Part shown: positions 289 through 36,993 of the stretch, one piece after another
How positions within the stretch are numbered: the first letter of the stretch is position 1
Layout: each line of letters begins with the position of its first letter
Assembly (NCBI GenBank): GCA_945868875.1
Contig: CAMBMW010000004.1
Coordinates: 1 to 37,415 of the forward strand
DNA: 37,415 bases
From: an uncultured Treponema sp.
Lineage (GTDB): Bacteria; Spirochaetota; Spirochaetia; Treponematales; Treponemataceae
Reading direction: 5' to 3'
Notes under the pieces: generated by a model
Databases searched by the model: none
Told to the model about the DNA's origin: nothing
The model's input: only the letters and a program-made list of their open reading frames with translations
Translations under genes and position numbers: made by a program

Positions 289-975
289 TCATTTTTCGCA
301 TCCCCATTGTGCATAGTATTCATCGAGCTGAGTTTTAATTTCCGGTGTAATGATTTTTTTGTCACCGTTTGTATACAGAGCATCGATTACATCATCCATT
401 GTGACTATGGCGCAAGTTTTAAATCCATAAGTTTCTGATATAACTTGTAAAGCGGATTTTGTAGTGTCAGGGGCACGTTCCATGCGATTTAAACTTACTA
501 TTTCTCCAACGATTTTAATTGAATCTTTTTGTGTTTCTTGCGATTTGATTTTTGGAAAAACTTCTTCGATTGATTTTCCAGAAGTTGTTACATCTTCGAT
601 TATTACTACTCTGTCTCCATCTTTAATCTTGTATCCCAAAAATCCACCTTTATCTGCTCCGTGGTCTTTTTCTTCTTTTCTGTCGCAGCAATATTTTACT
701 TCTTTTCCATAAATTTCACTGTAGGCAATTGCTGTAGTTACTGCCAATGGGATACCTTTATATGCAGGACCAAAAAATACGTCAAAATCATCACCAAAAT
801 TGTCATGAATTGCGTGCGCATAAAATTCGCCAAGACGTTTTAGTTGAGAACCAGTGATGTAAGCTCCAGCATTCATGAAAAACGGAGACTGGCGTCCGCT
901 TTTAAGTGTAAACGAACCGAATTTCAAAACCTGAGCTTCTACCATGAAATCAATAAACTGTTTTTTGTAATCCAT
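289..975 (-). CDS. pyrE: Orotate phosphoribosyltransferase
   Basis: A 228-residue cytosolic enzyme that joins orotate and PRPP to make orotidine 5'-phosphate in pyrimidine synthesis. The type I phosphoribosyltransferase PRPP loop is clear (VVIIEDVTTSGKS, about residues 123-135), and the flexible catalytic loop is seen in RKEEKDHG (about residues 100-107). Length is typical of bacterial PyrE. The chosen ATG follows a GGAG box. It is transcribed away from purD across a repeat-filled gap; one GGGACAGACC motif lies only about 35 bases upstream of its start. No other pyrimidine gene is adjacent, so it appears to be a stand-alone unit. Confidence 0.95.
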   Translation of the reverse strand: MDYKKQFIDFMVEAQVLKFGSFTLKSGRQSPFFMNAGAYITGSQLKRLGEFYAHAIHDNFGDDFDVFFGPAYKGIPLAVTTAIAYSEIYGKEVKYCCDRKEEKDHGADKGGFLGYKIKDGDRVVIIEDVTTSGKSIEEVFPKIKSQETQKDSIKIVGEIVSLNRMERAPDTTKSALQVISETYGFKTCAIVTMDDVIDALYTNGDKKIITPEIKTQLDEYYAQWGCEK

Positions 976-1007: not shown

Positions 1008-1170
1008 CAGGGACAGACCTCGTTTTAAACTAAATCAAACCCGAGTTTTGGCAGAAGTTTAATTTCATTTTAAAAAAGGTGAAATAAAATGCTAAAACTC
1101 ACGGCTCGTGATAACAAAATTTACGTTGGCGTGCAAGCGCAAAACACGAGCCAGGGACAGACCTCGTTTT
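1008..1170 (+). repeat. GGGACAGACC-bounded repeat, copy A
   Basis: The unit begins and ends with the same 15-base sequence CAGGGACAGACCTCG followed by TTTT (1008-1026 and 1152-1170). Inside are an AAACCCGAG block, a TCACG-gct-CGTGA hairpin at about 1099-1111, and a GCAA-rich block. The whole unit is repeated, with changes, at 1225-1396. No reading frame is supported. The short motif with internal hairpins resembles non-autonomous elements mobilised by REP-associated tyrosine transposases, but none is in the window, so that link is inference. Confidence 0.7.
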
Positions 1171-1224
1171 TAATCAAACCAATTCCGATTATATAGAAAA
1201 AAAAATGGATTTTCAATGAAAAAA

Positions 1225-1396
1225 CAGGGACACACCTCGTTTTAAACTAAACCAAACCCGAGTTTTGTCAGAAATGAAACTCACCTTACAAAAGAGAAAA
1301 AAGTTGCCAAAACTCACGTCTCGTGATAACAAAATTTGCATTGTTGTGCAACCGCAAATCACGAAACAGGCACGAAACAGGGACAGACCTCGTTTT
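1225..1396 (+). repeat. GGGACAGACC-bounded repeat, copy B
   Basis: Diverged direct repeat of the unit at 1008-1170. It keeps the boundary motif at both ends (one base changed at the left end, GGGACACACC), the TTTTAAACTAAA-CAAACCCGAGTTTTG block, and the TCACG-tct-CGTGA hairpin. It ends about 50 bases before purD and therefore supplies the upstream DNA of that gene. A reading frame that runs through it into purD is a by-product of the repeat and not a real extension. Confidence 0.7.
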
Positions 1397-2926: not shown

Positions 2927-2988
2927 GGGGACAGACCTTGATTTAAAACTAAACTAACATCAGCACGAATCAGGGACAGACCTTATTT
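2927..2988 (+). repeat. Short paired GGGACAGACCTT motif unit
   Basis: Two copies of GGGACAGACCTT (2928-2939 and 2973-2984) flank a spacer containing TTTAAAACTAAACTAA, close to the spacer of the larger repeats before purD. It is probably a short or degraded member of the same family. It lies between the purD terminator and the promoter of the Crp-like gene. Confidence 0.6.
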
Positions 2989-4505: not shown

Positions 4506-5054
4506 ATGCTTAAGTCAAAATCTTTTTTTATTTCTTTTTTCTTATTTTGTTCAATTCATTTTTTCTCTTTTTCGCAAGATTATCCAAAAGGATATAAAAA
4601 TATTTTACTTGGCATGACTTTTGAAGATACAAAAATTGCATTACTCAAAGATTCTGATTTCGGTTATCATGGAGAACGAGATGTCTCTCTCATTCCTGGA
4701 ACTAATAAAACATTAATCGAAACAGATGCACAATACGGACACGGTTCTAATTTTCTTGAACGCTGCTGGTTTCAATTCACAAATGATTCTCTTTACATCA
4801 TCACAATAAATGTAAATCAAGAAAAAATCGATTACTACACTATATTCACCACACTATGCAACAAATACGGAAATCCAACCGATTTTAATCCTCAAAAAGC
4901 TACATGGAAATCAGATGAAGTAACTTTTACTCTGGAAAAACCACTAACTTTAAAATATATCGATAACAAGATTTTTGATTCAACTCAAAACTATTCAAAT
5001 ATACAAGATTCTCCTGTAGAAATCACACAAAAAATGTTTTTGGATGAATTATGA
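4506..5054 (+). CDS. Secreted protein of unknown function
   Basis: 182 residues. The first 24 form a Sec-type signal peptide: lysines at 3 and 5, then a Phe-rich hydrophobic stretch ending near SFSQ. The mature part is a small mixed alpha/beta domain with a YPKGYKNILLGMTFEDTK start, reminiscent of periplasmic domains that begin with a GMT-type turn, but I cannot name a family. No good Shine-Dalgarno box precedes the ATG; the signal peptide decides the start. Its stop overlaps the start of the DUF192 gene by four bases, so the two are probably translationally coupled. It lies 124 bases after the Crp-like gene without a visible terminator and may share its transcript. Confidence 0.7.
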   Translation: MLKSKSFFISFFLFCSIHFFSFSQDYPKGYKNILLGMTFEDTKIALLKDSDFGYHGERDVSLIPGTNKTLIETDAQYGHGSNFLERCWFQFTNDSLYIITINVNQEKIDYYTIFTTLCNKYGNPTDFNPQKATWKSDEVTFTLEKPLTLKYIDNKIFDSTQNYSNIQDSPVEITQKMFLDEL

Positions 5055-5497
5055 TAAAAAAACAATTTAGCCTATTATTTTTAATATTCACCTTCTCAAC
5101 AGTTTTCATTTCTTGTTCTCAAAAAAAACTTAAAACTGAAAAATTAATGATTACAACAAAAGAGGGACAGACCTTCTATGTTGATGCAGAAATTGCACGC
5201 ACTCAAGAAGAAAGAAACTTTGGTTTCATGGAAAGAAAAAAAATCCCAGATGGGACAGGCATGCTTTTTATTTTTGAGTTTGACCAAAAACTTTCATTCT
5301 GGATGAAAAACACACCTCATCCTCTGTCAATTGCATACATAGACTCTAATGGAATAATTCGCGAAATTTATGACATGACCCCGTTCAGCCTTTCCTCAAT
5401 AGAAAGCACAGTTTCAGTTCGCTACGCACTAGAAGTACCACAAGGTTGGTTTCTAAAAAACAATATAACACCAGGAGATAAAATTTCTCTCCCCTAG
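5051..5497 (+). CDS. DUF192 family lipoprotein
   Basis: 148 residues. The N-terminus is a lipoprotein signal with a spirochaete-style lipobox FISC, so Cys22 would be lipidated and the protein anchored to a membrane. The rest matches the DUF192 fold: EIARTQEERNFGFMERKKIPDGTGMLFIF, then FWMKNTPHPLSIAYID, a conserved core of this family. The biochemical role of DUF192 proteins is not established. The gene overlaps its upstream neighbour by ATGA and ends three bases before the converging TPR gene. An exact GGGACAGACCTT, the intergenic repeat motif, occurs within it at 5164-5175, coding for part of EGQTF. Confidence 0.85.
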   Translation: MIKKQFSLLFLIFTFSTVFISCSQKKLKTEKLMITTKEGQTFYVDAEIARTQEERNFGFMERKKIPDGTGMLFIFEFDQKLSFWMKNTPHPLSIAYIDSNGIIREIYDMTPFSLSSIESTVSVRYALEVPQGWFLKNNITPGDKISLP

Positions 5498-36545: not shown

Positions 36546-36581
36546 ATGCAAAGCAGGTCTGTCAGGGCAAACGCATTATAA
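36546..36581 (+). other. Orphan translation start running into a repeat
   Basis: TATAAT-like sequence near 36516-36521 and a CAGGAG box precede an ATG, but the frame stops after 11 codons because it enters the inverted-repeat element at 36564. It may be the start of a gene broken by the insertion or a chance match. Confidence 0.3.
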
Positions 36582-36778
36582 AAAATATTTTCATAAAAGT
36601 TGGCGCGAGGGAGTGAGACACAGGGCAAAAAGACTTTTTTTGGGGCTGCCGCGAGAGCGGCATTATAATAGTTTCTATACCCCAAAAAACGTCTAGCGCA
36701 TTATTGCGCGTTTTTGACCTGTGAATCACGACCGGGAGCCAGATATTACAACTAATCATTTTATAATGCGTTTGCCCT
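36564..36778. mobile_element. MITE-like element with perfect 20-bp inverted ends
   Basis: AGGGCAAACGCATTATAAAA at 36564-36583 is exactly inverted at 36759-36778. The 215-base interior has no gene and is itself folded: AGAC-TTTTTTTGGGG faces CCCCAAAAAA-GTCT, with small GCCGC-gaga-GCGGC and GCGCA/TGCGC stems. AGGTCTGTC occurs on both sides (36555-36563 directly adjacent; 36782-36790 three bases out), which fits a 9-base target duplication. It lies in a GGGACAGACC motif. Without a transposase it would be non-autonomous. Confidence 0.75.
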
Positions 36779-36795
36779 ACAAGGTCTGTCCCTGT

Positions 36796-36993
36796 TTTAA
36801 ACTGTGGCAAGGATTGTAAGGGCTGGCGAAGCCAGTTCCGAAGCGCAGCGAAGGAATGAAGGCGCTTTGACGCCGGAACCCTGAAAAGCCTGTTTTTGCT
36901 TGCTGTAGTTGCTGAGAGTTGGTTTCTGAGTAGAGTCATTATGGATGGTTCTTGAGCTGAGTTGAGATAAATAAAAACGAGCAAAAGCCACCC
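36796..36993 (+). repeat. Dispersed modular hairpin repeat, right copy
   Basis: Second copy of the repeat at 120-235 in the same orientation. It keeps the first 66 bases, AACCCTGAAAAGCCTG (36877-36892) and the GCAAAAGCCACCC end (36981-36993). It differs by GCGC-ttt-GACGCC where the left copy has CGATAGCG, and by about 80 extra bases inside the last hairpin loop (36900-36980). Confidence 0.85.

Follow-up and report, generated by a model that had tools for sequence, protein, structure and literature searches.

A short repeated tag, two-hairpin units and long Y1 transposase genes in an uncultured Treponema

The IS200/IS605 architecture consists of two hairpins with a short site at each end, and the target site is retained. 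Cleavage between C and T has been reported for the TnpA_REP enzymes of E. coli and S. maltophilia, and the mechanism by which small repeats are amplified is said to be still to be elucidated in the accessible part of the same article (PMC8266576). The name TIRYTs was introduced by Di Nocera et al. (2013; PMC3733652), who described flanking repeats that in part fit GGGGWSAS and in part make up moderately abundant families; the available portion of that paper reports no obvious correlation of tyrosine transposase genes with REP or TIR families. According to the sections at hand of a later classification, 20 of 26 described TIRYTs and 291 of 292 RAYT group 1 sequences fall in subclass 2.1, the second largest subclass of TnpA_REP enzymes and the probable counterpart of the TIRYTs (Quentin et al., 2018; PMC6006769). 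As far as those sections go, no REP-like sequences turned up next to subclass 2.1 genes, whether they were looked for automatically or by hand (Quentin et al., 2018).

The open-licence literature held no paper joining tyrosine transposases, Treponema and repetitive DNA and, among the titles listed there, no account of the repeat described below, which is weak evidence of absence. One article containing the motif string (PMC4853749) was rejected as a report of this repeat, since the string in the part available belongs to a primer.

The repeat is a short motif, GGGACAGACC, hereafter the tag. The window, that is the whole stretch of 37,415 nucleotides that was analysed, is part of contig C4 of the genome of an uncultured Treponema (G000; 2.18 Mb, 204 contigs, 85% complete). 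It is likely that GGGACAGACC is the form taken in this genome by the recognition tag of its long (~250 aa) HUH transposases (TIRYT/RAYT group 1/subclass 2.1), enzymes that would move the tags and the units they bound.

Tags and units in the window and in a sister species

Eight matches to the tag at up to one mismatch occur in the window, against 0.51 expected, and none of 100 dinucleotide shuffles reached eight. Exact copies lie on the forward strand at 1010..1019 (M1), 1154..1163 (M2), 1380..1389 (M4), 2928..2937, 2973..2982 and 5164..5173, and on the reverse strand at 36783..36792; the remaining copy, GGGACACACC, at 1227, has one mismatch. The copy at 2928 is a solo tag downstream of purD, and the one at 2973 follows it 45 bp on in direct orientation. 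The copy at 5164, missing from the list in a first-pass annotation, lies within an ORF (5051-5497) that has no NCBIfam match, and may be ordinary coding sequence.

Two units lie between pyrE (289-975, minus strand) and purD (ORF end 2796, in-frame ATG at 1450); NCBIfam confirms the identity of both genes. Unit 1 (1010..1163, forward strand) is a gene-free cassette of 154 bp, 144 bp from start to start, with two hairpins between direct tags, M1 at its left end and M2 at its right. It matches the covariance model described below (C4:1007-1163, E 2.1e-33) as a member of the training set. The arms of the first hairpin, H1, were placed by the unit alignment at 1040..1053 (CCCGAGTTTTGGCA) and 1090..1100 (TGCTAAAACTC). 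Those of the second, H2, at 1103..1110 (GGCTCGTG) and 1145..1152 (CACGAGCC), are supported by compensatory changes in the helix, and the right arm ends one base before the right tag. Unit 2 (1227..1389, forward strand; 163 bp, 153 bp from start to start) is a cassette of the same type, with the one-mismatch tag on its left and M4 on its right, and its match to the model (C4:1224-1378) is likewise that of a training-set member. The unit alignment places its H1 arms at 1257..1270 (CCCGAGTTTTGTCA) and 1305..1315 (TGCCAAAACTC), and its H2 arms at 1318..1325 (GTCTCGTG) and 1360..1367 (CACGAAAC), the last being imperfect, with a second CACGAAAC at 1371.

Part of the first-pass annotation is borne out here. 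Its motif copies at 2928, 2973 and, inverted, at 36783 are present and exact, and the placement of the units between pyrE and purD is correct. The two units bounded by direct motifs are real, the left motif of unit 2 having one mismatch, and at 154 and 163 bp they fall slightly short of the roughly 165-170 bases given for them. The hairpin TCACG-NCT-CGTGA, described there as conserved, is present in both window units but in only 2 of 41 aligned units; it runs from the last part of H1 into the first part of H2, and is not supported as a feature of the family.

The alignment of 41 units was hand-picked from G000, its sister species G006, G010 and G021, and was made by sequence, without fitting to structure. 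Nine nearly complete matches (two in L040, L045 18613, L195 468, two in L197, L203 365 and two in L205) and partial matches were left out. Direct tag pairs spaced by 90-200 bp numbered 22; 16 enclose a unit, and the six without one were dropped. The layout across the 41 units is a tag, about 25 nt, H1, three bases, H2 and a tag. Family-wide, H1 has the form GAGTTTT...AAAACTC with a variable insert, and H2 the form GGCTCGTG...CACGAGCC, an 8-bp helix with a loop of about 35 nt that has conserved stretches and a CATTGG-like part. H2 shows changes on both sides at five of its eight pairs in the 41 units, and the helix is supported by these compensatory changes. Over both hairpins 98.2% of cells pair, and 30 cells carry both-sided changes against a shuffled mean of 7.3; none of 500 shuffles reached either value. 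When the partners of H1 and H2 are shifted, pairing drops to 13-52%. Further pair types in H1 and H2, one of five whole-structure measures, did not exceed the shuffles (10 vs. 8.8, reached by 104 of 500). The pairs of H1 hardly vary (six of seven never do), so that covariation is uninformative on this hairpin.

Five places were compared between G000 and G006, of which three were readable. At L040 a single tag in G006 corresponds to tag-unit-unit-tag in G000, between colinear flanks of 79-88% identity, and a further difference of about 33 bp lies right next to the occupied site. The unpolarised difference in tags and units fits either insertion at a tag or deletion between two direct tags. At L045 one unit in G006 stands against four in G000, arranged A-B-A-B, with flanks 95-97% identical; this unpolarised difference fits recombination between copies as well as transposition. 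The pyrE flank of G006 has solo tags and no unit, with purD on another contig. The spacer that follows M2 in the window (1164..1226, forward strand) has its counterpart there, window 1154-1218 being an 82% match to G006 (L201) that begins at the tag. No colinear flanks with G006 were found for L043 (C22), and in the C30 stretch the two species are too divergent between genes to be read. L050 as a query against G006 gave scattered matches and a MITE.

This MITE also accounts for the inverted motif that the first-pass annotation had placed at 36554, which proves to be a partial motif at the far end of the element rather than a full copy. Motif match and element alignment show the tag at 36783..36792 to be split by the 217-bp MITE (36563..36779, minus strand), whose end, CAGGGCAAACGCATTATAAA, is inverted at the other end, with T as first base here; the ends were read by eye. 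The partial tag (36553-36562) equals the tag at 36783 in 8 of 10 bases and looks like a target duplication of about 10 bp. Judged by eye, the duplication is exact in L050 and L269 and 8/10 in the window, and none was seen at L268, L270 and L271. Copies 98-100% identical to that in L050 (3048-3264) are found in the window and in C34, C82, C46 and C27 of G006; G000 C113 has a 57-bp piece, and G010 a relative at 74%. Across the two species the MITE is 98-100% identical, while the larger colinear stretches compared are 88-97% identical, and it has inserted in a GGGACAGACC tag twice, each time with a duplication of about 10 bp. A separate repeat of about 90 bp occurs at 117-208 and 36793-36890 of the window and at L045 2713-2807, with further BLAST matches at more than 10 places in G006.

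Tag abundance and its association with Y1 genes

Genome-wide, G000 holds 273 exact tags (135 forward and 138 reverse), and the reversed-pattern control holds none. The first-pass annotation had proposed a family of repeats whose short end is fixed and whose interior varies, a reading that depends on the motif being enriched outside the window; the genome-wide count supports it. The true copy number is probably higher, since contigs break at tags or units: C3, C27, C28, C31, C46, C69, C120 and C142 all start or stop in or beside one.

Placement and spacing were assessed on 110 of the 273 exact tags, from the window and from stretches that had been picked for motif matches, so that tag clusters are over-represented in the spacing figures. 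Outside ORFs of at least 100 aa lie 91 of the 110, and 19 lie inside, in 133 kb of which such ORFs make up 80%. Counting sites with no more than one mismatch (141), 18 have no neighbour within 250 bp. The 89 neighbouring pairs within 250 bp comprise 67 direct and 22 inverted ones; the direct spacings are mostly 24-46, 117-119 and 142-153 bp, and some inverted pairs, such as that at L045 2937-2978, make long palindromes that include runs of T. In 94 exact copies the conserved block barely exceeds the motif: A predominates at -5, -4 and -1, as does T at +15 and, in 93 of 94 copies, at +10. The base preceding GGGACAG is A in 69 of the 94 and G in 24.

A hairpin of the tag's own, AAAACAGG-GACAGA-CCTCGTTTT, was considered and rejected, column shuffles on 86 copies giving no convincing covariation. 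In the same comparison the best z for any stem across the tag was 2.8, at -5/+15, with neighbouring pairs mostly about 0 or below, and a stem across the tag was therefore dropped for G000. Three exact tags, of which a pair 39 bp apart lies in near-identical repeats, occur within one ORF at L042 1360-1582 and may there contribute an in-frame repeated peptide. A palindrome-rich repeat of about 160 bp lies outside the tag, with copies 92-96% identical at L043 1206-1368, at L034 3651-3821 and in C15, C107, C119 and C128 of G006.

A genome-wide profile search found three Y1_Tnp (HUH, single-tyrosine) genes in G000, with open frames of 250, 258 and 263 codons. The tag, at up to one mismatch, lies on both sides of all three within about 160 bp, inverted at the C69 and C142 genes and direct at the C120 gene, and each of the three contigs ends just beyond the downstream tag. 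Two of the three proteins were scanned. They score 65.6 and 60.8 bits with PF01797 (cut-off 23), fall below the cut-off of NCBIfam REP_Tyr_transpos (59 and 57.2 vs. 80 bits) and gave no helix-turn-helix match at E ≤ 0.001. Hand-picked alignments of 34 and 40 homologues were used for comparison: His62 and His64 (HUH) and Tyr121 are invariant in all 34, and HTH_23 is matched at E ≤ 0.1 by 10 of the 40. Among the best 80 of 220 homologous stretches, the closest named ones come from Spirochaetia and Treponema MAGs and are 80% and 78% identical to the G000 transposase. One protein 80% identical to a G000 protein (L083) has an AF2 model with a mean pLDDT of 92, in which the C-terminal part is predicted with high confidence to be helical; the protein itself has no HTH_23 match. 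The best PDB fold for this model is 4er8, TnpA_REP on a REP hairpin, which is also the best by sequence (E 0.0013).

The association that the first-pass annotation had thought worth checking, with a REP-associated tyrosine transposase gene, is thus found: the tag flanks the three Y1 genes of G000, and its copy number tracks the gene from one genome to the next. In the genus, for which 59 genomes were compared, the eight with the long Y1 gene hold 26-276 tags and the other 51 hold 0-19 (median 2). Genomes with short, IS200-like Y1 genes alone have few (one in G018, none in G037, one in G038 and six in G058), and G007 has 19 tags and no Y1 hit. Among 97 genomes of the order, a Y1 hit was obtained in 23 of 25 with at least 20 copies of GGGACAGACC or GGGACAGAGC, against 14 of 72 others. 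Some of those 14 hits are IS200-like, and the two tag-rich genomes without a Y1 hit are G075 and G086. The thresholds used in the Fisher tests (20 copies; long frame) were chosen after the counts had been seen, and the tests ignore kinship. In G079, G093 and G096 the Y1_Tnp matches are expanded to 28, 21 and 13, several being short or close to the end of a contig, and this expansion is unmatched by GGGACAGACC copies in G093 (two) and G096 (three).

What follows GGGACAG differs by lineage. Beside the Y1 genes of the order the suffix is ACCT in G000, ACCCC in G025 and G056, and AGC in G061, G066, G067, G070 and G078. The motif GGGACAGAGC, derived from such Y1 flanks, is enriched genome-wide, with 199 copies in G061, 148 in G067, 137 in G078 and 120 in G070, and at most 11 in genomes of the genus.

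The core heptamer is also found beside homologous genes elsewhere. A scan with one protein gave 220 encoding stretches, of which the best 80 yielded 79 loci, two of them spirochaetal and the rest from Bacillota as far as record titles tell. GGGACAG lies within 500 bp of 47 of the 79 genes, nearly all from Bacillota, and 35 have it on both sides. The near flanks, 76.6 kb in all, contain 146 copies, compared with 58 in 140.3 kb at 1-2 kb. Across 105 permutations of the heptamer the median is 6 loci; those that come next (46 and 36 loci) overlap the GGGACAG sequence in a shifted frame. The loci have 253 heptamer sites, and in 71 the heptamer stands in the loop of a perfect stem of at least 6 bp; a control in which the 3' flanks were dealt anew gave 26.4 on average and 34 at most. 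The stems vary by lineage (GGGACA/TGTCCC, GAGTCA/TGACTC, GAAACA/TGTTTC and GTGCCA/TGGCAC). In 24 genomes holding homologue loci, GGGACAGGT reaches at least twice the reversed control in 14. Of the ten below this level, three entered through loci without a near heptamer (L147, L149 and L157), and seven have the heptamer near the gene all the same (G097, G098, G100, G105, G109, G110 and G117). These results indicate that the heptamer is shared, that amplification is not universal, and that suffix and stem vary by lineage.

The units are distributed more narrowly. With the covariance model at E ≤ 1e-4, six of 97 genomes have matches, training units included: at least 31 in G000, at least 31 in G006, 16 in G010 and one each in G001, G021 and G048. 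Scoring was applied to 31 candidates per genome under stricter filters, and zeros may hide weak copies. The model detected no unit in five members of the genus that have both gene and tags (G014, G025, G031, G034 and G056), and G001, G021 and G048 have one match each, yet no Y1 hit. The link between unit and enzyme is therefore weaker than that between tag and enzyme. No unit was found close to the three Y1 genes of G000, whose contigs end just past the downstream tag; the nearest is about 3.6 kb upstream (L035).

Proposed mechanism and rival explanations

The transposase probably spreads or maintains the tag. By analogy, the Y1 enzyme would cut single-stranded DNA at the tag, perhaps at CC/T (the slash marking the cut), a position proposed because the E. 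coli and S. maltophilia enzymes cleave between C and T and because T follows the tag in 93 of 94 copies. Joining of the cut ends by the same enzyme would then multiply the tags and tag-bounded segments. Under this scheme the units of the window would be gene-free passengers, with two hairpins between direct tags. A unit that inserted at an existing tag would leave a tag on each side, giving rise to tag-unit-tag-unit-tag arrays, whose length could change further through recombination between copies. Recognition of the tag by the enzyme, cutting near CC/T and movement of units as single strands are inferred. More tentatively, and with some doubt, the tag may be a sequence-specific landing and release site, at which a group-1 HUH transposase reads the GGGACAG core and the lineage suffix and moves two-hairpin cassettes in and out, so as to form modular gene-less arrays.

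Tags might be host regulatory or terminator sites, for example bidirectional ones where they face each other, that are kept by selection and serve the transposase as targets only. The preference for DNA outside long ORFs is what such sites would show, as are the inverted pairs, about a quarter of neighbours (22 of 89), some of them in long palindromes with T runs. We consider this very unlikely: the other 67 adjacent pairs are direct repeats, tags are few or absent in members of the genus that lack the long gene, and the same site has one tag in G006 and two tags with two units in G000. Homologous recombination and replication slippage, with the Y1 gene as merely another carrier of the repeat, would explain differences between the two species, the A-B-A-B array of four units against a single unit in G006 being the expected product of unequal crossing-over and the difference at L040 a possible deletion between direct tags. 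The seeding of tags at new sites is left unexplained by recombination, however; gene and tag separate cleanly at 20 copies in the 59 genomes of the genus, a threshold chosen afterwards; and GGGACAG also flanks homologous genes in another phylum. As the main route of spread for tags and units, recombination and slippage appear improbable.

The compensatory changes in H2, together with the conserved stretches in its loop, are also what might be seen if the two-hairpin unit were a transcribed structured RNA, regulatory or processed, that was duplicated incidentally. Rfam searches gave matches far below the gathering scores, and the copies, which stand between tags in arrays that vary in length, are missing at matching sites of the sister species, so that this explanation too finds little favour. 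Recognition of the tag by the long HUH transposases remains the preferred reading.

If the GGGACAG tags are the substrate, subclass 2.1 gains a testable DNA target across two phyla, and natural variation in suffix and stem can be set against the protein sequences of the subclass. The gain or loss of hairpin units from tag to tag would also provide a natural assay for the way in which domesticated HUH transposases amplify small repeats.

Comparison with known systems

REP/REPIN systems with RAYTs of groups 2 and 3 share with G000 an HUH Y1 enzyme and many short intergenic repeats in arrays of both orientations, as described in the accessible part of PMC8266576. The tag consensus of 94 copies has no GTAG/GTGG 5' foot, and no palindromic stem was found in 86 copies from G000; the relatives in Bacillota do have stems. 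A classical REP was accordingly rejected for the tag, which has neither the GTAG foot nor a stem across it.

The layout of the units resembles that of IS200/IS605 ends without the gene, and may be comparable to that of non-autonomous elements of that group, H1 and H2 lying between tags. It differs in that the usual site has four or five bases, fewer than the tag, and in that no parental IS with these hairpins was noticed, incidentally, in the stretches examined.

With TnpA_REP subclass 2.1/RAYT group 1, the G000 enzymes share a Y1 core and a C-terminal helix-turn-helix extension, as that subclass is characterised in the available sections of Quentin et al. (2018; PMC6006769); the difference is that in G000 repeats are abundant both in the gene flanks and genome-wide. 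The features of TIRYTs can be recognised one by one. The Y1_Tnp core, which has the HUH pair and one catalytic Tyr, is present in three of three genes by the genome search. The C-terminal helix-turn-helix is assigned from the helical L083 model and the HTH_23 matches in 10 of 40 homologues, the two G000 proteins scanned and L083 itself being without a hit. Inverted flanking repeats of the GGGGWSAS type are found at three of three G000 genes and at 35 of 79 homologues, allowing for the direct orientation at C120 and for a preceding base that is mostly A. As in the TIRtrons, so far as the portion consulted of PMC3733652 describes them, a RAYT-like gene is flanked by GGGGWSAS-type repeats, copies of which occur elsewhere as dimers and clusters. 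The G000 system differs from these in its hundreds of copies, its spirochaete host, the lineage suffix after GGGACAG, and the gene-free structured units between direct tags. It is filed here under the TIRYT systems, as one in which the tags are unusually abundant and accompanied by an undescribed passenger.
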